From positions 1 to 38,511 of IMG/VR virus record IMGVR_UViG_3300043446_001168: DNA of 38,511 nt; one strand, 5' to 3'. Below, one piece after another: positions 13,098-27,436 of the stretch (positions are counted from its first letter, which is position 1; each line of letters begins with the position of its first letter). Origin of the DNA: a virus. The position numbers were made by a program, and so were the translations under genes. Under the pieces are notes generated by a model, which was given only the letters and a program-made list of their open reading frames with translations, was not told the origin of the DNA and made no database searches.

Positions 13098-13254
13098 GCA
13101 CGGCGCGGTACGCCGCCAGCGCGTCCTTTAGCTCGCACTGCAACTGCTGGATGCGGTCGTCTTGCTCTTGCATCTTGGCGTAGGCGTCGTGGGCGAACTT
13201 TGCCAGGTTGTCAGGGCTCCAAGTCTCAAACTGCGGCATGGTCATCTCAATCAT
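12937..13254 (-). CDS. Small leftward protein, convergent with the endolysin (hypothetical)
   Basis: The 105-residue protein starts at an ATG overlapping the previous gene's stop (ATGATTGA), with AGGA 5 bases before it. Residues 1-50 look real: MPQFETWSPDNLAKFAHDAY, then MQEQDDRIQQLQCELKDALA, a helix suited to a small coiled-coil dimer. From about residue 53 the sequence is Ser/Thr/Gly-rich and lies antisense to the endolysin, so it is probably read-through without conserved function. It is last in the leftward operon. Confidence 0.5.
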   Translation of the reverse strand: MIEMTMPQFETWSPDNLAKFAHDAYAKMQEQDDRIQQLQCELKDALAAYRAVLRTSEGRPLDEPSPSQTSASSAASSRKLTFVQGTGAEVRQELARQWPLGSSGQ

Positions 13255-13435
13255 TTCGTTCCTGCTTGCTGGGCGAGTCACACTCGGCGCGAGCTCGCTT
13301 GATGCGCTTGACGACGACGCGTTCCTCGGTGGTGAAACAGTGTTCGTTGGCGCAACAGCGCCGGCGGTAAACGTAGGTGCCTCGGCTGCGCGTCTCTTTT
13401 ACGTCAGTCCATGCACCGCATTCAGGGCACTTCAT
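13247..13435 (-). CDS. Zinc-ribbon protein (NrdR/Ogr-like finger)
   Basis: The 62-residue protein begins MKCPECGAWTDVKETRSRGT, followed by YRRRCCANEHCFTTEERVV. The arrangement CPxC, then a basic strand, then C-x4-C and FTTEE, is that of the NrdR zinc-ribbon N-terminus and related phage zinc fingers. These bind nucleic acid and often regulate transcription. The C-terminus is basic (VKRIKRARAE). The start is the ATG at 13435; the frame stays open further upstream but the zinc ribbon begins here and the ATG overlaps the previous stop. It may regulate the phage's own operons. Confidence 0.68.
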   Translation of the reverse strand: MKCPECGAWTDVKETRSRGTYVYRRRCCANEHCFTTEERVVVKRIKRARAECDSPSKQERND

Positions 13436-13623
13436 TCCTCGCCTCTGATGTAGCGTCCCAGCCGATAGATCGACGCCTCGTAGCGGTCGCACATGGCGCT
13501 GGCGTACTCTTTGGCTGACTGCGCCTCCAAGAGCTTGCGCTTGCACTCCTCGTACTCACGCACGGCCAGCACCTCAGCGCTTGGGGGTTGGAACAACTCA
13601 CGGATTTGACTAAGAAATTTCAT
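13432..13623 (-). CDS. Small helical protein (hypothetical)
   Basis: 63 residues, one continuous charged helix: MKFLSQIRELFQPPSAEVLA, then REYEECKRKLLEAQSAKEYA, then YEASIYRLGRYIRGEE. It is coupled on both sides by ATGA overlaps. It resembles short phage early proteins without known function. Confidence 0.55.
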   Translation of the reverse strand: MKFLSQIRELFQPPSAEVLAVREYEECKRKLLEAQSAKEYASAMCDRYEASIYRLGRYIRGEE

Positions 13624-15215: not shown

Positions 15216-15802
15216 AAGCACCCCCACTGCGCAGCCATCGCGTTGGCGATGCCGGGATAGGTTGCGCTGCGAATCTTCCAGCGGTCTTTGCTAGGTGATA
15301 GCTTGTTCTGGCCACTGGCGGTCTGGTTGGCCCTACGCGTTTTGGCGTCGCCCGGCAGCATGTCGGTTGGCGTAAGGGGCGGCAGATTTTTTAACCAAAG
15401 ACAGGTTTTCTTGCTAGCGTCATGGCCAAACCACCACGGCTGGATGATTTGGTCAGGTTTGCGGATGCGCGAGCTGATGACGCTTACGGGGTTTTCGATG
15501 GCGATACGCTCGATCGGCGCGTCCATGAGCTGCTGCACAAAGTCCAGCGCGTCTTCGGTCAGCTTGGGATCGCGCAAACCGCGCGTCGTCCAGTGCATGC
15601 CACTGACGGACAGATAAGTGCAAGGTGGATGCGCGATCATCAAGTCCCAACCGTGGTCAAGGATGTCGAGCACACTGCATTGATAGTGATCACCAAGCGG
15701 CGACTCACTCGGTAGTAGGTCGCAGGACGCAGCGTAATGACCAGCGCGAATAAACGCGTCACGCACGGCCCCTGAGTACTCACAAGCGACAAGGATTCTC
15801 AT
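15212..15802 (-). CDS. Cytosine-C5 DNA methyltransferase-like protein
   Basis: The 196-residue protein begins MRILVACEYSGAVRDAFIRA, a cofactor-binding motif I variant. SCDLLP is the motif II-like acidic step, IAHPPCTYLSVSG (57-68) is the PPC motif with catalytic Cys61, and AIENPVSVISS is the ENV-like motif VI. It is much shorter than typical cytosine-C5 methylases, and I see no full target-recognition domain or motifs IX-X. Such small phage versions are widely annotated as methyltransferases. It lies between VRR-NUC and the helicase, coupled to both. It could protect phage DNA; activity is not proven by sequence. Confidence 0.72.
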   Translation of the reverse strand: MRILVACEYSGAVRDAFIRAGHYAASCDLLPSESPLGDHYQCSVLDILDHGWDLMIAHPPCTYLSVSGMHWTTRGLRDPKLTEDALDFVQQLMDAPIERIAIENPVSVISSRIRKPDQIIQPWWFGHDASKKTCLWLKNLPPLTPTDMLPGDAKTRRANQTASGQNKLSPSKDRWKIRSATYPGIANAMAAQWGCL

Positions 15803-18412: not shown

Positions 18413-20359
18413 ATGTCAATCCTTTGGATCGATTTTGAAACCCGCAGCCGGTGCGACTTGCCCGAGGCTGGGGTCTACAACTACGCGCAGGACGCGAGCA
18501 CGGATGTGCTGTGCATGTCCTACGCCTTCAACGACGAGGAGGTGCGCACTTGGGTGCCGGGTGAGCCCTTCCCCGCCCGCGTGGGGCGTCACACCGGCCA
18601 GATCAGGGCACACAACGCCGCGTTTGAGCGCTTGATCTTCTGGTATGTGCTCCAGATCAATTACGACCTTGAGCAGTTTTACTGCACCGCCGCTCAGGCC
18701 CGCGCCAACTGCGCCCCTGGCTCGCTCGAGGACGTGGGACGCTTCGCGTCGGCCAACATGCGCAAGGACCATCGCGGCTCGCAGCTCATTCGCCTCCTCT
18801 CCATCCCGCAGGCCGACGGCAACTTCCGCCAGGACGCCGCGCTGATGCAAGAGATGATCGAGTACTGCGAGCAGGACGTCAACGCCATGCGCGCCGTCTC
18901 CAAGGCCATGCGCGACCTGACCGCTGACGAGCTCGCCGACTATCATGTCAACGAGCGCATCAACGACCGGGGTGTGCTGGTCGACACCGCCTTGGCCAAG
19001 GCCGCCATGCGTTACGCGCAGGACGAGCTGGTTGAGATTCAAGACGTGGTGGCCGAGGTTACGAACGGCGAGATCACCAGCGTGCGCAGCCCCAAGATGC
19101 GCGAGTGGGTGCTGGCGCGTGTCGGTGACGAGGCCAAGAAGCTAATGGTCGTGCACAAGGACGGCGAGGCCAAGTATTCAATCGATAAGACAGTGCGAGC
19201 TAACCTGCTCGCGATGGAGAATCCCGATGAAGTACCACCCGACGTGGCGGAAGTCATCCAGTGCGCCAGTGACTTATGGGCGAGCTCGGTTGCGAAGTTC
19301 AGCAAACTTGCATCAATTGCAGATGAAGAAGATCACCGAGTTAGAGGTGCCTTCGTTTTTGCTGGAGGCAGTGCAACGGGGCGAGCTTCGTCCTACGGAG
19401 CTCAGGTCCATAATCTTCCACGTAAAAGCGCTAAACACCCCGAGGCCGTCCGCACAGCAATGGTTCGAGGCCATTCGATCGTGCCTCAACATGGTCTGAA
19501 AGTAACGGCGATCCTAAAAGAAATGCTGCGCCCAGCGTTCATTGCGCCGAAAGGCTCAGTGTTTATTGATTATGATTGGTCAGCAATCGAAGCGCGAGTC
19601 CTGCCATGGCTTAGCGAGCATGGTGAAGCCACGCTTGACGTTTTCAGACGCGGTGAAGACATGTACGTCGCCACCGCGCGCAATATGTTTAATGTGACTG
19701 AGGTGTCGTCAGATCAACGTCAACAAGCCAAGGTGGCCGTGCTCGCTTGCGGATTCGGTGGCGGCGTCGGCGCGTTCAGTGCTATGGCGCGCATCTATGG
19801 CATATCAATCACCGAAACCGAAGCGCAGCGGATGGTTAATTTATGGCGTCGTGCGAATCCTTGGGCGCAACCTATGTGGCGACGCGCTGAGGATACGTAT
19901 CGTCGTGCCATGCGTAACCCTGGATCAGAATTCACCGCTAACCGCGTGACCTACATGTACGACAAAACGCACCTGTGGTACATGCTGCCTTCAGGTCGTG
20001 TGTTGTGCTATCCGTACGCGCGGTTTGAGGAAGACGGAGAGATTTCGTACGCGAAAGCGGCATGGAAGCCATCCGCTGAGGCAAAAGAATGGCCTCGCGC
20101 CAAGCTCTGGTACGGGATTGCTGTTGAAAATATAACACAGGCTGTTGCACATGACGTGTTGCGGCATTCTTTGCGCGTCATGGATAGTGAATCCATTGCC
20201 GTCGTAGCGCATATACACGATCAAGTAATCGCGGAGGCGCCCGCTTGCAATGCGGACGATGTTGGGCGTAGAATGGCGGAAATTATGACAACACCGCCAC
20301 CTTGGGCCGCCGGTTTGCCTTTAGCAGTTGACGGCGGCCCTTCTGAAAGGTTCTCGTGA
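18413..20359 (+). CDS. Family A DNA polymerase with 3'-5' exonuclease domain
   Basis: The 648-residue polymerase has exonuclease motif I LWIDFETRS (Asp7, Glu9), motif II HNAAFER (67-73) and motif III YCEQDVNAM, giving proofreading. The polymerase domain has motif A VFIDYDWSAIEARVLPWL (about 381-398), motif B RQQAKVAVLACGFGGG (about 434-449) and motif C HDQV (His602-Asp603). No 5'-nuclease domain is present, as usual for phage enzymes. The ATG at 18413 begins right at the exonuclease fold; the frame is open upstream but overlaps other genes, and the ribosome site is weak. Base composition falls from over 60% GC in the exonuclease half to about 50% in the polymerase half. Confidence 0.92.
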   Translation: MSILWIDFETRSRCDLPEAGVYNYAQDASTDVLCMSYAFNDEEVRTWVPGEPFPARVGRHTGQIRAHNAAFERLIFWYVLQINYDLEQFYCTAAQARANCAPGSLEDVGRFASANMRKDHRGSQLIRLLSIPQADGNFRQDAALMQEMIEYCEQDVNAMRAVSKAMRDLTADELADYHVNERINDRGVLVDTALAKAAMRYAQDELVEIQDVVAEVTNGEITSVRSPKMREWVLARVGDEAKKLMVVHKDGEAKYSIDKTVRANLLAMENPDEVPPDVAEVIQCASDLWASSVAKFSKLASIADEEDHRVRGAFVFAGGSATGRASSYGAQVHNLPRKSAKHPEAVRTAMVRGHSIVPQHGLKVTAILKEMLRPAFIAPKGSVFIDYDWSAIEARVLPWLSEHGEATLDVFRRGEDMYVATARNMFNVTEVSSDQRQQAKVAVLACGFGGGVGAFSAMARIYGISITETEAQRMVNLWRRANPWAQPMWRRAEDTYRRAMRNPGSEFTANRVTYMYDKTHLWYMLPSGRVLCYPYARFEEDGEISYAKAAWKPSAEAKEWPRAKLWYGIAVENITQAVAHDVLRHSLRVMDSESIAVVAHIHDQVIAEAPACNADDVGRRMAEIMTTPPPWAAGLPLAVDGGPSERFS

Positions 20360-20847
20360 AAACAAGCGCTCTCACGCAAAAACGATTGAAAGAAGTTGTT
20401 CGGTACGATCGTCAATCTGGTCTGTTTTATTGGCGCGTTTCTACTGGTAAAGTAAGTCGAGGTGCGGTAGCAGGACACACTGATAGCAACGGGTACACAA
20501 AACTAAGCATCGATGGCGTTAAATATTTTGCGCATCGTTTGGCTTGGTTGTACGTCTATGGTCAATGGCCTAGGCAAAACATCGACCACATTGACCGCCG
20601 TCGGAATAATAACCGGCTGTCTAACTTGCGTGACGTAGGTCAATCGATGAACGGCCTAAATGGACCTGTTCGTCGCAACAATAGTAGTGGCTATACTGGT
20701 GTGTCTTACGATAGCCGCAGGCAGAATTGGGTGGCGTATGTAAACCGAGGGCCGCATAAAAAACACCTTGGGGCTTACAAAACGCTTACTGATGCCGCGC
20801 TTGCTAGACATGCGGCCCTTGCTCAAATTTTTTCGTCGGCTCGATAA
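20356..20847 (+). CDS. HNH homing-type endonuclease with AP2 domain
   Basis: The 163-residue protein has an HNH core: FAHRLAWLYVYGQWP (His60), NIDHIDRRRNNNRLSNLR with Asp77/His78, Asn86 and Asn90. After it comes an AP2-type DNA-binding domain (about 107-150, SSGYTGVSYDSRRQNWVAYV then KKHLGAYKTLTDAA). This is the common free-standing homing endonuclease of phages and would cut related phage genomes near the same site to spread itself. GTG at 20356 overlaps the polymerase stop (GTGA), with GAAAGG upstream. A strong terminator follows. GC content is lower than in the primase gene downstream. Confidence 0.88.
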   Translation: MKTSALTQKRLKEVVRYDRQSGLFYWRVSTGKVSRGAVAGHTDSNGYTKLSIDGVKYFAHRLAWLYVYGQWPRQNIDHIDRRRNNNRLSNLRDVGQSMNGLNGPVRRNNSSGYTGVSYDSRRQNWVAYVNRGPHKKHLGAYKTLTDAALARHAALAQIFSSAR

Positions 20848-20908: not shown

Positions 20909-23212
20909 GTGGAGTTCTTAGATTTTATAGTAAACCTAGCCCCTGAGGGCGAAACCGCACTGATTGTGCGTCAAAAACCACAGCTCAAGGATCAAGAGCT
21001 GCAATTCCACGCCGATGGGGCCATCAAGTGCACCTGGCCGGCATATCTGCCCAGCAAGTGGAAGGACAACGGCTGGGCGTGGTACGGCAACACGGCGAGC
21101 TTTGTGATCGACCGCTTCGAGGAGGGCCGCGTCTCAGCGTCCGCCGCCAACTGCGACTACGTGCTGGTGATGGTGCTGGACGACGTGGGCTCGGACAAGG
21201 TGCCCAAGAAGTGCCCGCTGCCGCCCACCTGGAAGATGGAAACCAGCCCCGGCAACTATCAGTGGGGCTACGCCTTCGACGTCGACAACCAGCCCACCAA
21301 ACGCGAGTTCGCCGCCGCCATTAAGGCCATCGCCGCTGCGGGCTACACCGACGCTGGCGCCATCAACGCCGTGCGCAACTTCCGCCTGCCTGGCTCGGTC
21401 AATCTGAAGCCCGGCAAGGACAATTTTGCCGCGCAGTTGGTCGAGTTCACCCCCGCCCGCGCCTACACCCTGGCCCAGCTCTGCGAGGCTATGAACGTCA
21501 CTTATGACGTCGCCACCGCTGACGAGTTCCGCCCCATCCGCATCAGCGACGACGGCACCGACGACGTGCTGGCGTGGCTCTCTGGCCAGGGCCTGCTCGT
21601 CTCACGCCCCAACCTCGAGGGCTGGTGCGGCGTCATTTGCCCCAACAGTGCCGAGCACACCGACGGCAACCCCGAGGGCCGCTACCTGCCCACCAGCCGG
21701 GCGTTTGTCTGCTATCACTCGCACTGCGTTGACTTTGACAGCGCGGCGTTCCTCCAGTGGGTTGAGGCCAACGGCGGTCCAGCCCACCGCCCTGGCCTGC
21801 GTGATGAGCTGCTGGCCGCCAAGATGGCTGGCGTATTCGACAAGATCAAGCCCACCGAGGCGTTCCCTGACGAGGCGGCCAAGGCCATCGCCGAGGTCGA
21901 GCGCAAAGAGCTCGGACGCATCGAGAAGTCGCAATGGTACGAGCGCTTCGCCTACATTCAGGACGACGAGTCGTACTTTGACATGCAGGATCGCCGGGAG
22001 CTCAGCCGCTCCACGTTCAACGCGCTGTTCCGTCACATTAGCTGCAAGTCCATCCACAATGGCCGTCGCATCGAGGCGTCGGTCTGCTTTGACGAGAACC
22101 GCCAGGCCATGGGCGCCCGCGCCTTGGTCGGTATCACCTACGCCGCTGGCGAGGGCGTGCTGGTGGCCCGCGACGGCGACGTCTACGGCAACCGCTGGCG
22201 CGACGCCAGACCGCCGATCGGGGCCGGTGGCGACATCACCCCTTGGCTGCGTCACTGCGAGGCGCTGGTGCCCGATAAGAAGGAGCGCGAGCACCTCTTC
22301 AACGTGATGGCGTTCAAAGTTCAGCACCCCGAGGTCAAGATCAACCATGCGGTGCTCCATGGCGGCACGCAAGGCTGCGGCAAGGATACCCTCTGGGCGC
22401 CATTTATCTGGGCTGTGTGTGGTCCTCAGTTTAAAAACCGGGGCCTGCTCGACAACGACACCCTCGGATCGCAGTGGGGCTACCAGCTCGAGTCCGAGGT
22501 GCTGATTCTGAACGAGCTGAAAGAGCCCGAAGCGAAGGACCGCCGGGCGCTGGCCAACAAGCTCAAGCCCATCATCGCCGCCCCTCCCGAGATGCTGACA
22601 GTCAATCGTAAGGGTTTACACCCATATGACATGCTGAACCGCATGTTTGTGCTGGCGTTCTCGAATGATCCAGTTCCGATTTCATTAGACAGCCAGGACC
22701 GCCGCTGGTTCTGCGTCTGGTCCACCACCCCCAGGATGGACCCCGACGCCGCCGCCGCCATGTGGCGCTGGTACAAGGCCGGCGGGTATGAGGCCATCGG
22801 CCACTGGCTGCACCACCGCGACGTGTCAGCGTTCAATCCGTCGGCAGCGCCAGCCATGACCGAGTTCAAGATGAACCTCATCGAGCAGGGCATGAGCATG
22901 GCCGAGAGCTACCTAGTCGAGCTGATGCGCCTGCGCATGGGTGAGTTCTCCAAGGGCGTCGTGGGCTCACCGTTTCACGCGCTGTGCGATCGGGTGGCCT
23001 CCGGGGCCCCTGCTGGGGTCAAGGTGCCCCAGGCAGCGCTCTTGCACGCGCTCACCGAGGCCGGCTGGATCAACCTGGGCCGCGTTGCCTCCGCCGACTA
23101 CCCCAGCAAGAAAAACCTCTGGGCGCACCCCTCCATGGCCAATCAGAGCAAATCGGACCTGCGTCGCATGGTCGAAGAGCCCACCACCCCGCTCATGGTC
23201 CGGGTTAAGTAA
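20909..23212 (+). CDS. Primase-helicase (RepB-like primase plus SF3-like helicase)
   Basis: The 767-residue protein is a two-part replication enzyme. The N-terminal part is an archaeo-eukaryotic-type primase domain with VLVMVLDDVG (Asp91-Asp92) and the INAVRNFRLPGSVNLKP segment (about 156-172). A Cys/His cluster follows (CPNSAEHTDGN to FVCYHSHC, about 245-275), probably zinc-binding. The C-terminal helicase has Walker A HGGTQGCGKDT (about 483-493) and Walker B VLILNELKEP with the downstream KPIIAAPPEMLTVNRKG sensor region, as in the DUF5906/D5-like group. It primes and unwinds at the origin. GTG at 20909 has AAAGGAG upstream. Confidence 0.85.
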   Translation: MEFLDFIVNLAPEGETALIVRQKPQLKDQELQFHADGAIKCTWPAYLPSKWKDNGWAWYGNTASFVIDRFEEGRVSASAANCDYVLVMVLDDVGSDKVPKKCPLPPTWKMETSPGNYQWGYAFDVDNQPTKREFAAAIKAIAAAGYTDAGAINAVRNFRLPGSVNLKPGKDNFAAQLVEFTPARAYTLAQLCEAMNVTYDVATADEFRPIRISDDGTDDVLAWLSGQGLLVSRPNLEGWCGVICPNSAEHTDGNPEGRYLPTSRAFVCYHSHCVDFDSAAFLQWVEANGGPAHRPGLRDELLAAKMAGVFDKIKPTEAFPDEAAKAIAEVERKELGRIEKSQWYERFAYIQDDESYFDMQDRRELSRSTFNALFRHISCKSIHNGRRIEASVCFDENRQAMGARALVGITYAAGEGVLVARDGDVYGNRWRDARPPIGAGGDITPWLRHCEALVPDKKEREHLFNVMAFKVQHPEVKINHAVLHGGTQGCGKDTLWAPFIWAVCGPQFKNRGLLDNDTLGSQWGYQLESEVLILNELKEPEAKDRRALANKLKPIIAAPPEMLTVNRKGLHPYDMLNRMFVLAFSNDPVPISLDSQDRRWFCVWSTTPRMDPDAAAAMWRWYKAGGYEAIGHWLHHRDVSAFNPSAAPAMTEFKMNLIEQGMSMAESYLVELMRLRMGEFSKGVVGSPFHALCDRVASGAPAGVKVPQAALLHALTEAGWINLGRVASADYPSKKNLWAHPSMANQSKSDLRRMVEEPTTPLMVRVK

Positions 23213-26028: not shown

Positions 26029-26253
26029 TTACTTGGTGATTAGGTCGTCGAGGCGGTCGTACCCTGCGACGCGCTGGGCGCGGTCGTCAGACGCGATCAG
26101 CTTCGCGCAGTTGCGCATTTCGGCGATGATGTAGACCAGGCCGCGCACGTTGGCGGCGTCGGTGGACTCGCGCGGCGCGAGCGCAGTCGTGACGGCTTGC
26201 AGCTTGGCGAGGGTGGCTTCAATGCTGGCGAGTTCTGAGTGAGTGAATTTCAT
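26029..26253 (-). CDS. First gene of the accessory operon (hypothetical)
   Basis: A 74-residue helical protein: MKFTHSELASIEATLAKLQA, then NVRGLVYIIAEMRNCAKLIA, then RAQRVAGYDRLDDLITK. AGGA lies 9 bases before the ATG. It is transcribed from the strong promoter just upstream and could be the regulator of that promoter or of the repeat array beyond it, but there is no helix-turn-helix I can point to. Confidence 0.6.
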   Translation of the reverse strand: MKFTHSELASIEATLAKLQAVTTALAPRESTDAANVRGLVYIIAEMRNCAKLIASDDRAQRVAGYDRLDDLITK

Positions 26254-26357: not shown

Positions 26358-26473
26358 GTTTTGGGTCATTGTGTGGGTCGTCATGGGTCGTCGCGTTTGG
26401 GTGCGTTTGACCCATGACGCGCTCGAGTGAAAATGAGGGTTTTGGGTCATTTGGGTCATTGATTGTTTACTAA

Positions 26474-26503
26474 TTGATTGAATGAAAATAGTAATACTAT
26501 AGT
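26474..26503 (+). promoter_or_regulatory. Possible rightward promoter inside the repeat array
   Basis: TTGATT (26474-26479), an 18-nt spacer and TATAGT (26498-26503) lie in an AT-rich segment directly after the repeat pair 26444/26453 and before the block at 26551. It would transcribe toward the terminase genes with a 450-base leader. Box quality is moderate. Confidence 0.35.
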
Positions 26504-26581
26504 GCTATTAGGGTTTACGAGCACGTCGACGGCCAGCGACTGAAAACCGATGGCCCAAATGACCCAAATGACCCATAAACC

Positions 26582-26595
26582 CCGAACCGGTTCGG
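26582..26595. repeat. 14-bp perfect palindrome, copy 1
   Basis: CCGAACCGGTTCGG is its own reverse complement. The same sequence recurs at 26660-26673, 78 bp away, in both cases just after a TGACCC pair and ATAAAC, so palindrome and repeats belong to a composite unit. Confidence 0.7.
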
Positions 26596-26610
26596 CGCGC
26601 GCCAGTGGCC

Positions 26611-26656
26611 ATGGGTCATTTGGGTCACTTGAAAACCGATGACCCAAATGACCCAT
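26611..26656. repeat. 17-bp perfect inverted repeat built from facing repeat pairs
   Basis: Bases 26611-26627 (ATGGGTCATTTGGGTCA) and 26640-26656 are exact reverse complements separated by 12 bases. A related cassette is at 26691-26738, again with a 12-base spacer ending GAAACCGA. The first could extrude as a hairpin or bind a protein dimer of dimers. Confidence 0.8.
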
Positions 26657-26659
26657 AAA

Positions 26660-26673
26660 CCGAACCGGTTCGG
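26660..26673. repeat. 14-bp perfect palindrome, copy 2
   Basis: Identical to 26582-26595. It is followed directly by GGCCGGCCGG palindromic sequence. Confidence 0.7.
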
Positions 26674-26890
26674 CCGGCCGGCCTGGCGCCGATGGGTCAA
26701 ATGGGTCAACGTGAAACCGATGACCCAAATGACCCATCGGCCATGGCCATGTGGCTGCGTGCTGGGTGCATTGGGTCGACCCAAATGACCCATGGCTTGG
26801 TGTCAGTTTTCGCGTAAGGGAATTCGGGTTTCAGATTTCGGCCCCCGGGTAGGGCCCTGAGGCCGGCCGGTCCGGCGGCGGAGGGGCTGC

Positions 26891-26920
26891 AAACAATTTA
26901 TTTTTATTTTTAATTTTTTC
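26891..26920. other. A/T tract, possible DNA-unwinding element
   Basis: 28 of 30 bases are A or T (mainly T on the plus strand) in an otherwise GC-rich region, about 100 bases from the last repeat and 43 bases before the terminase start. An A/T-rich tract next to iterons is the standard layout of a replication origin. A late-gene leader element is the alternative. Confidence 0.45.
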
Positions 26921-26962
26921 AGTTACCATCCGAATCACGCCATCGCGCGGCAAGGAGGAATC

Positions 26963-27436
26963 TTGTTCAAGTCAATACCGCTCACGTTGCGTGAAGTCAA
27001 AGCGACCGAAGCGACACTCACGCGCATTTACGACGCAGCCAAGATCGGACTGCGTGGTGACAATCTGGCGCTGGCCGCCGGCATGCGGCCTGAGGAGTAC
27101 CGGCGACTGACGCAGCTGGACGAGATCGCCGCGTTGGCCGAACTCAAGGGCCGCGCCGACGGCGAGTTCGAGATCAGCACCGAATTGCACAAGGCCGCCA
27201 TGTCTGGCGACGCCAAGGCAGCACTCGCCATCCTGCAAAACGTCCACGGCTGGGTGGCCAAGCAGGCCATCACGGTCGATGTCAACCAGTCGATCAGCAT
27301 CACGGCGGCGCTTGCCGAAGCGCAGAAACGCGTCCTGGACGTCATCGACGTTGAAGCCAAGACAAACCAACTGGAGAATGACCTTGACAATCCTGTACTT
27401 GAGCATCGTGTTGCTTCTAGCGCTGTGGGCGATTGA
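26963..27436 (+). CDS. Terminase small subunit (putative)
   Basis: The 157-residue protein lies directly before the large subunit. The first third has a helix-turn-helix-like segment (DNLALAAGMRPEEYRRLTQL), then a helix with GRADGEFEISTELHKAAMSG and DAKAALAILQNVHGWVAKQA, a pattern seen in many small terminases that bind the packaging site. The C-terminus is a helix with ALAEAQKRVLDVI. The start is TTG at 26963 behind a perfect AAGGAGGA; no ATG fits as well. A rare start codon plus an optimal ribosome site may set its ratio to the large subunit. Confidence 0.72.
   Translation: MFKSIPLTLREVKATEATLTRIYDAAKIGLRGDNLALAAGMRPEEYRRLTQLDEIAALAELKGRADGEFEISTELHKAAMSGDAKAALAILQNVHGWVAKQAITVDVNQSISITAALAEAQKRVLDVIDVEAKTNQLENDLDNPVLEHRVASSAVGD

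Follow-up and report, generated by a model that had tools for sequence, protein, structure and literature searches.

A paired-iteron array upstream of terS, a probable replication origin, covaries with one loop of the primase-helicase in a freshwater phage group

The window, by which we mean the whole stretch of DNA analysed, corresponds to a virus record of 38,511 bases whose ends carry a direct repeat of 81 bp, giving a circle of 38,430 bp. The phage carries a P22-type portal and head genes. An array of short repeats is flanked by small leftward genes on one side and by the rightward terS-terL-portal block on the other, and the features relevant to its interpretation are as follows.

20909-23212, plus strand: primase-helicase, 767 aa, the proposed initiator (profile matches, AlphaFold models)
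22898-23173, plus strand: predicted C-terminal winged-helix domain, primase-helicase residues 664-755 (AlphaFold models)
23087-23110, plus strand: wing, residues 727-734, putative specificity loop, in which positions 727, 729 and 732 covary with the array word
26363-26791, no strand assigned: iteron array, 15 exact TGACCC sites and near copies in 9-bp direct pairs, proposed replication origin; same place and spacing in 120 distinct related loci
26444-26458, minus strand: 9-bp pair in the left half of the array, reverse orientation
26459-26513, no strand assigned: A/T-rich stretch within the array, reaching 76% A+T per 50 bp, candidate unwinding element; placement conserved in relatives
26551-26574, plus strand: triple 9-bp repeat TGGCCC-TGACCC-TGACCC
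26613-26627, minus strand: 9-bp pair
26640-26654, plus strand: 9-bp pair, inverted relative to 26613-26627
26694-26708, minus strand: 9-bp pair with an AAA spacer, imperfectly complementary to its partner pair
26721-26735, plus strand: 9-bp pair
26777-26791, plus strand: 9-bp pair CGACCC-TGACCC
26819-26962, no strand assigned: block upstream of terS with GGCCCCCGGGTAGGGCC and an A/T tract (26891-26920), outside the iteron array; 95% identical in the related contig L287 despite a different array there
26963-27436, plus strand: small terminase subunit gene terS, adjoining terL; homologues found

An earlier, sequence-only reading of this DNA had reported 15 exact TGACCC/GGGTCA half-sites here, and a direct count confirmed all of them between 26363 and 26791, which is 15 of the 30 such sites in the window. 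The same reading described seven groups with 9-bp spacing; this holds when near copies are counted, with TGGCCC at 26551 and CGACCC at 26777 needed to reach seven, whereas exact hexamers form six exact 9-bp pairs and the near copies make the further ones. By chance, a 444-bp array would hold a mean of 0.46 sites (maximum 4) and 0.0005 9-bp pairs (maximum 1) in 2000 first-order Markov shuffles. The A/T-rich segment at 26459-26513 separates a left set of mostly reverse sites from a right set of mostly forward sites. Formation of a hairpin or cruciform was disfavored, as the arms at 26694 and 26721 match at the half-sites but the AAA spacers on both arms mismatch; because these spacers are not complementary, protein binding fits better than a hairpin. 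Two identical palindromes, CCGAACCGGTTCGG, lie between iteron pairs at 26582-26595 and 26660-26673, 78 bp apart. Cumulative GC skew, which had been suggested as a check for an origin, did not mark the array: its minimum on the 38,430-bp circle fell at 15241, away from the repeats. For a small phage whose genes lie on both strands, GC skew is a weak origin test.

To place the array in its family, we searched IMG/VR with TerS, TerL and the primase-helicase; each search matched hundreds of stretches, and the best 80 per search were used. An exact scan for TGACCCAAATGACCC found like arrays adjoining terS in many of the family stretches. Many other relatives lack TGACCC, yet have a different array in the same gap upstream of terS, built on half-site words such as TGTCCA (TTGTCCACATTGTCCACA), TGCCTA, GCCAAC, TTGCTTACA and others. 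The expectation that related phages would carry arrays in this gap was thus borne out, but with different words. The family with a bipartite, 9-bp-paired array upstream of terS is a large set of P22-portal podophages.

The layout was shared across 120 distinct loci with TGACCC- or TGTCCA-type arrays. Between same-strand sites, a distance of 9 bp occurred 364 times and one of 18 bp 47 times, and any other distance from 6 to 20 bp occurred at most 11 times. The array ended a median of 198 bp from terS, and an A/T-rich 50-mer (median 78%) lay at about 30% of the array length. Left of this core 282 of 350 sites were reverse, and right of it 637 of 800 were forward. The array, its 9-bp spacing, its bipartite layout and the covariation with the wing described below were all computed directly from these sequences. 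In some relatives a LexA-box-like palindrome, CTGT-N8-ACAG (TACTGTATATATATACAGTA), lies within the A/T-rich core (L034, about 2509-2528; similar in L093, L097 and L181); the window showed no such palindrome. DSL-LC05 (L284), related through its structural genes, has ten TGACCC sites adjoining terS from 33312 onward, partly as TGACCCACTGGGTCA-like palindromes and with 8-bp direct spacing. Its structural genes are homologous, and its primase (an 867-codon open frame) is unrelated or very distant; the DSL-LC05 paper makes no mention of a replication origin or repeats.

One relative separates the array from its neighboring terminase gene. L287 (the L006 contig) encodes a TerS 99-100% identical to that of the window, yet has a TGTCCA array. 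Its primase-helicase differs from that of the window at 53 of 767 residues, with 27 of the differences in the 45 residues from 716 to 760 and 26 in the other 722. For comparison, the primase-helicases of L285 and L286, which have TGACCC arrays, differ from the window at 12 and 14 residues, one of them within 716-760. The closest pair with different array words, L179 (TGACCC) and L327 (TGTCCA), had 98.0% identity over residues 1-720 and 63% over 721-750.

We then compared 24 TGACCC and 17 TGTCCA phages in sliding windows along the primase-helicase, with class labels taken from the DNA array only. Identity within classes minus identity between classes was about zero over most of the protein, including the N-terminal primase part, and at most 0.08 before residue 706, with values up to that limit in short stretches at residues 436-480 and 601-660. 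The gap was 0.00-0.02 at residues 661-720 and peaked at 0.15-0.20 at residues 706-750. A covariation of this kind could arise through physical linkage only, if the array and the 3' end of the primase gene were inherited together on an exchanged segment without interacting. L287 gives this idea some substance, in that the region downstream of its primase up to 26819 has been replaced as a block and the primase 3' end has diverged too. However, only residues 706-750 of the 767 carry the signal, and two positions among them split the classes perfectly; the genes between the primase and the array, which are nearer to the array, do not track the motif. Because the covariation is confined to one loop, we favor direct recognition and consider linkage as the sole cause very unlikely, though it may contribute.

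The residues that distinguish the two classes are few. All 27 TGTCCA phages have R at residue 729, where the 46 TGACCC phages all have G, A or S, and residue 732 is D in the former and P or Q in the latter, such that each position alone assigned 73 of 73 phages to the correct class. Residue 727 is K with TGTCCA and A with TGACCC, with one exception. On a tree of residues 1-600 there were nine independent switches, and all nine agreed with the wing (sign test p=0.004, the smallest value attainable with nine pairs). Among contigs outside the set used to find the rule, an A-[AGS]-[PQ] wing predicted a TGACCC array in 11 of 11 cases and a K-R-D wing predicted TGTCCA in 13 of 14, the remaining one being unclassified. 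A contig of a Rhodoferax genome bin (L364) also agreed with the rule, with a K-R-D wing and a TCCACA/GTCCAC array. There were exceptions: L251 has R729 with a TGACCC array, and L181 combines a K-R-T wing with a strong array of TGACCC sites. The L181 mismatch is either a real exception or transition state, or a chimeric contig. A base-by-base code pairing R729 with a given base was dropped, as automatic assignment of half-site orientation proved unreliable.

The position of the array directly upstream of terS throughout the family could instead indicate a pac- or cosB-like packaging element bound by the small terminase, as the sequence-only reading had suggested. Other phages are known to have repeated binding sites for TerS. 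The array word, however, changes while TerS stays the same, as in L287. For the same 73 phages, parsimony placed 19 motif changes on the TerS tree, 10 on the tree of primase residues 1-600 and 2 on the tree of primase residues 700-767. Across all motif classes, phages with wing identity of at least 0.7 had array similarities of 0.72-0.92, except for one sparse bin (0.40, n=10), whereas those with wing identity below 0.7 and TerS identity of at least 0.75 had array similarities of 0.04-0.19. This binned table was used in place of a nearest-neighbor test, which at very strict cut-offs retained 15 cases with a mean array similarity no higher than background. We consider a packaging role for the array highly improbable. 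Across these comparisons, which rest on mostly metagenomic contigs, the array word follows the last ~50 residues of the primase-helicase, and neither TerS nor a neighboring gene.

The separate block at 26819-26962 goes with terS and is the better packaging candidate, as a pac/cos site or else a late promoter. Its A/T tract at 26891-26920 had been read as the unwinding tract of the array; we rejected this assignment, as the tract follows terS rather than the array, and the array has an A/T segment of its own at about 26459-26513. Cores like GGGTAGGGCC from this block recur in many relatives.

The location of the array between divergent gene blocks, with promoter-like hexamers at and inside it, would also suit an operator for a regulator of the early promoters, directed leftward, and the late promoters, directed rightward. 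An operator for a small neighboring protein was not supported. Across 105 contigs, no gene family between the primase and terS was present in more than 73 or separated the motif classes; none was universal, and the common ones occurred in both classes. The protein that covaries is instead the primase-helicase, whose own gene lies 3 kb off. Two small proteins had been put forward as binders. Homologues of the one encoded at 26029-26253 were found in few loci (9 of 284), which does not support that role. The other, at 13247-13546, resembles an NrdR-like zinc ribbon (Pfam E=3e-4, below the cut-off) and had a homologue in one locus only among the first-fetched loci. We give the operator reading little credence, although repression of these promoters may be a by-product of primase-helicase binding, if the protein does bind at the array.

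The primase-helicase has a D5/SF3-like helicase domain at residues 483-599 (PF19263, E=4e-11) and a trace of a RepB-like AEP primase at residues 85-172 (PF16793, E=8e-5, score 23.0 against a cut-off of 24.3). Among solved proteins, the NrS-1 primase-polymerase is the nearest by sequence, through its helicase part (6k9c/6k9e; residues 458-603, E=4.5e-9). The C-terminus matched no Pfam family, PF03288 included, in 37 family members. An AlphaFold model of the C-terminal domain alone had moderate confidence (pLDDT 77); the full-length model was poor overall (pLDDT 54), with the C-terminal domain again fairly confident. Both models predicted the same order of elements: H1 664-674, S1 684-686, H2 689-699, H3 708-717, S2 721-726, loop 727-734 and S3 735-739. 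As this is the order of a winged helix, the C-terminus is predicted to adopt that fold and the covarying residues are placed in its wing. A Foldseek search of the C-terminal model against the PDB gave no significant match (best E=0.3), and many of the weak top hits were winged helices; an hhalign comparison with P4 alpha was not significant. An HNH endonuclease gene (20356-20847) lies directly before the primase gene in the window, and MW202483 has a homing endonuclease gene (L367:10712-11158) in the gap before the terminase genes. Such genes could promote exchange of the wing and array.

Several known initiators resemble this arrangement. P4 alpha (NC_001609) is likewise a primase-helicase fusion, of 777 aa against 767 here, and both have PF19263 (P4 alpha E=2.5e-9). 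P4 alpha is described as binding repeats of its origin through a C-terminal winged helix, and then unwinding and priming the DNA (PMC4234260). The type-1 iterons of P4 crr, TGTTCACACTGTTCACC, have the 9-bp spacing too, and form inverted sets on either side of an A/T-rich stretch. Unlike the window protein, P4 alpha has a zinc-ribbon and Toprim primase, absent here, and a PF03288 (Pox_D5) C-terminus, in contrast to a putative AEP/RepB-like primase and a C-terminus without a Pfam family; P4 also has two cis regions, whereas one array was seen in the window. Helicase-type Rep initiators of SaPIs recognize iterons by their C-terminal domain (PMC7581432), and PICI origins have two iteron sets around an A/T-rich region, with pri and rep fused in some cases (PMC6092414). 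The window's array family shows this two-set layout as well. SaPIs and PICIs are, however, satellites with the origin just 3' of rep; here the genome is that of a P22-portal podophage with its own capsid, portal and terminase genes, and 3.2 kb separate the primase gene from the array, which lies upstream of terS. By the proposed mechanism the system would resemble the origins of P4 alpha and PICIs, yet it belongs to neither type, because the Toprim primase and PF03288 are missing and the phage is not a satellite.

In NrS-1 and in ORF904 of the archaeal plasmid pRN1 an AEP PrimPol is fused to an SF3/D5-like helicase, an arrangement that the window protein may share, and ORF904 also has a C-terminal winged helix (PMC4234260). 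They differ in having no large paired-iteron array; a single 8-nt site is present twice in NrS-1, and pRN1 has a stem-loop (PMC7102993, PMC4234260). The NrS-1 primase-polymerase primes at TTTGGTTA, which may fix its origin (PMC8718748). With the NrS-1 enzyme as the closest solved relative and TTTGGGTCA resembling TTTGGTTA, the repeats might be primer-start signals on a single-stranded template, not double-strand iterons. Against this, specificity covaries with the C-terminal winged helix, not the N-terminal primase, and so many sites paired strictly at 9 bp would suit a multimer on duplex DNA. We regard primer-start signals as very unlikely; they would be compatible with an origin role, and are partly a variant of the origin reading.

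The best explanation of these observations, and one that we consider very likely on comparative grounds, is that the array is an iteron replication origin read by the C-terminal winged helix of the primase-helicase that the phage itself encodes, chiefly via the wing at residues 727-734. Of the three functions proposed in the sequence-only reading, an iteron origin is the best supported, with an array word that covaries with the primase-helicase wing. That reading had listed the primase-helicase among several proteins whose binding should be tested, and covariation singles out this protein, at one loop. The TGACCC half-sites would be iterons, recognized as 9-bp-spaced direct pairs by C-terminal winged helices. 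With two iteron sets in mostly opposite orientation flanking the A/T-rich core, copies of the initiator may bind on both sides and load helicase rings that would open the core, letting the fused primase begin synthesis. From the layout and covariation we infer direct binding by the protein, melting of the A/T core and initiation of replication at the array.

A similar exchange of specificity has been described in Vibrio PLE satellites, where the DNA-binding domain of RepA covaries with the origin and has been swapped repeatedly while the rest is conserved, and an origin-directed nuclease is thought to drive origin switching (PMC8263062). That system differs in having a RepA_N-type initiator and two origin types in a satellite; here a primase-helicase wing varies with many types among free-living phages. 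Our searches of the open-access literature showed no description of initiator-origin covariation for a tailed-phage primase-helicase. It is about an even call whether the related phages use at least half a dozen origin addresses, with a wing cassette of ~10 residues and the array switching together, by recombination or convergent change, and the rest of the replicase and the terminase staying constant. If so, related phages would be mutually exclusive replicons and the wing a readable specificity code, and rivals that target the origin, such as satellites and origin-directed nucleases, would plausibly drive the exchange.

An uncultured and widespread freshwater phage group thereby gains a proposed origin, initiator and specificity loop from sequence alone. 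The bipartite organization of the origin has been called unique to PICIs (PMC6092414), and because of that report its presence in a whole phage bears on the origins of satellite replicons. The natural pairs of wing and iteron, 73 of them complete for two classes and with several further classes, provide material for a winged-helix recognition code. They also raise the question of why phages keep changing their origin address, which in the Vibrio satellites has been tied to an origin-directed nuclease (PMC8263062).
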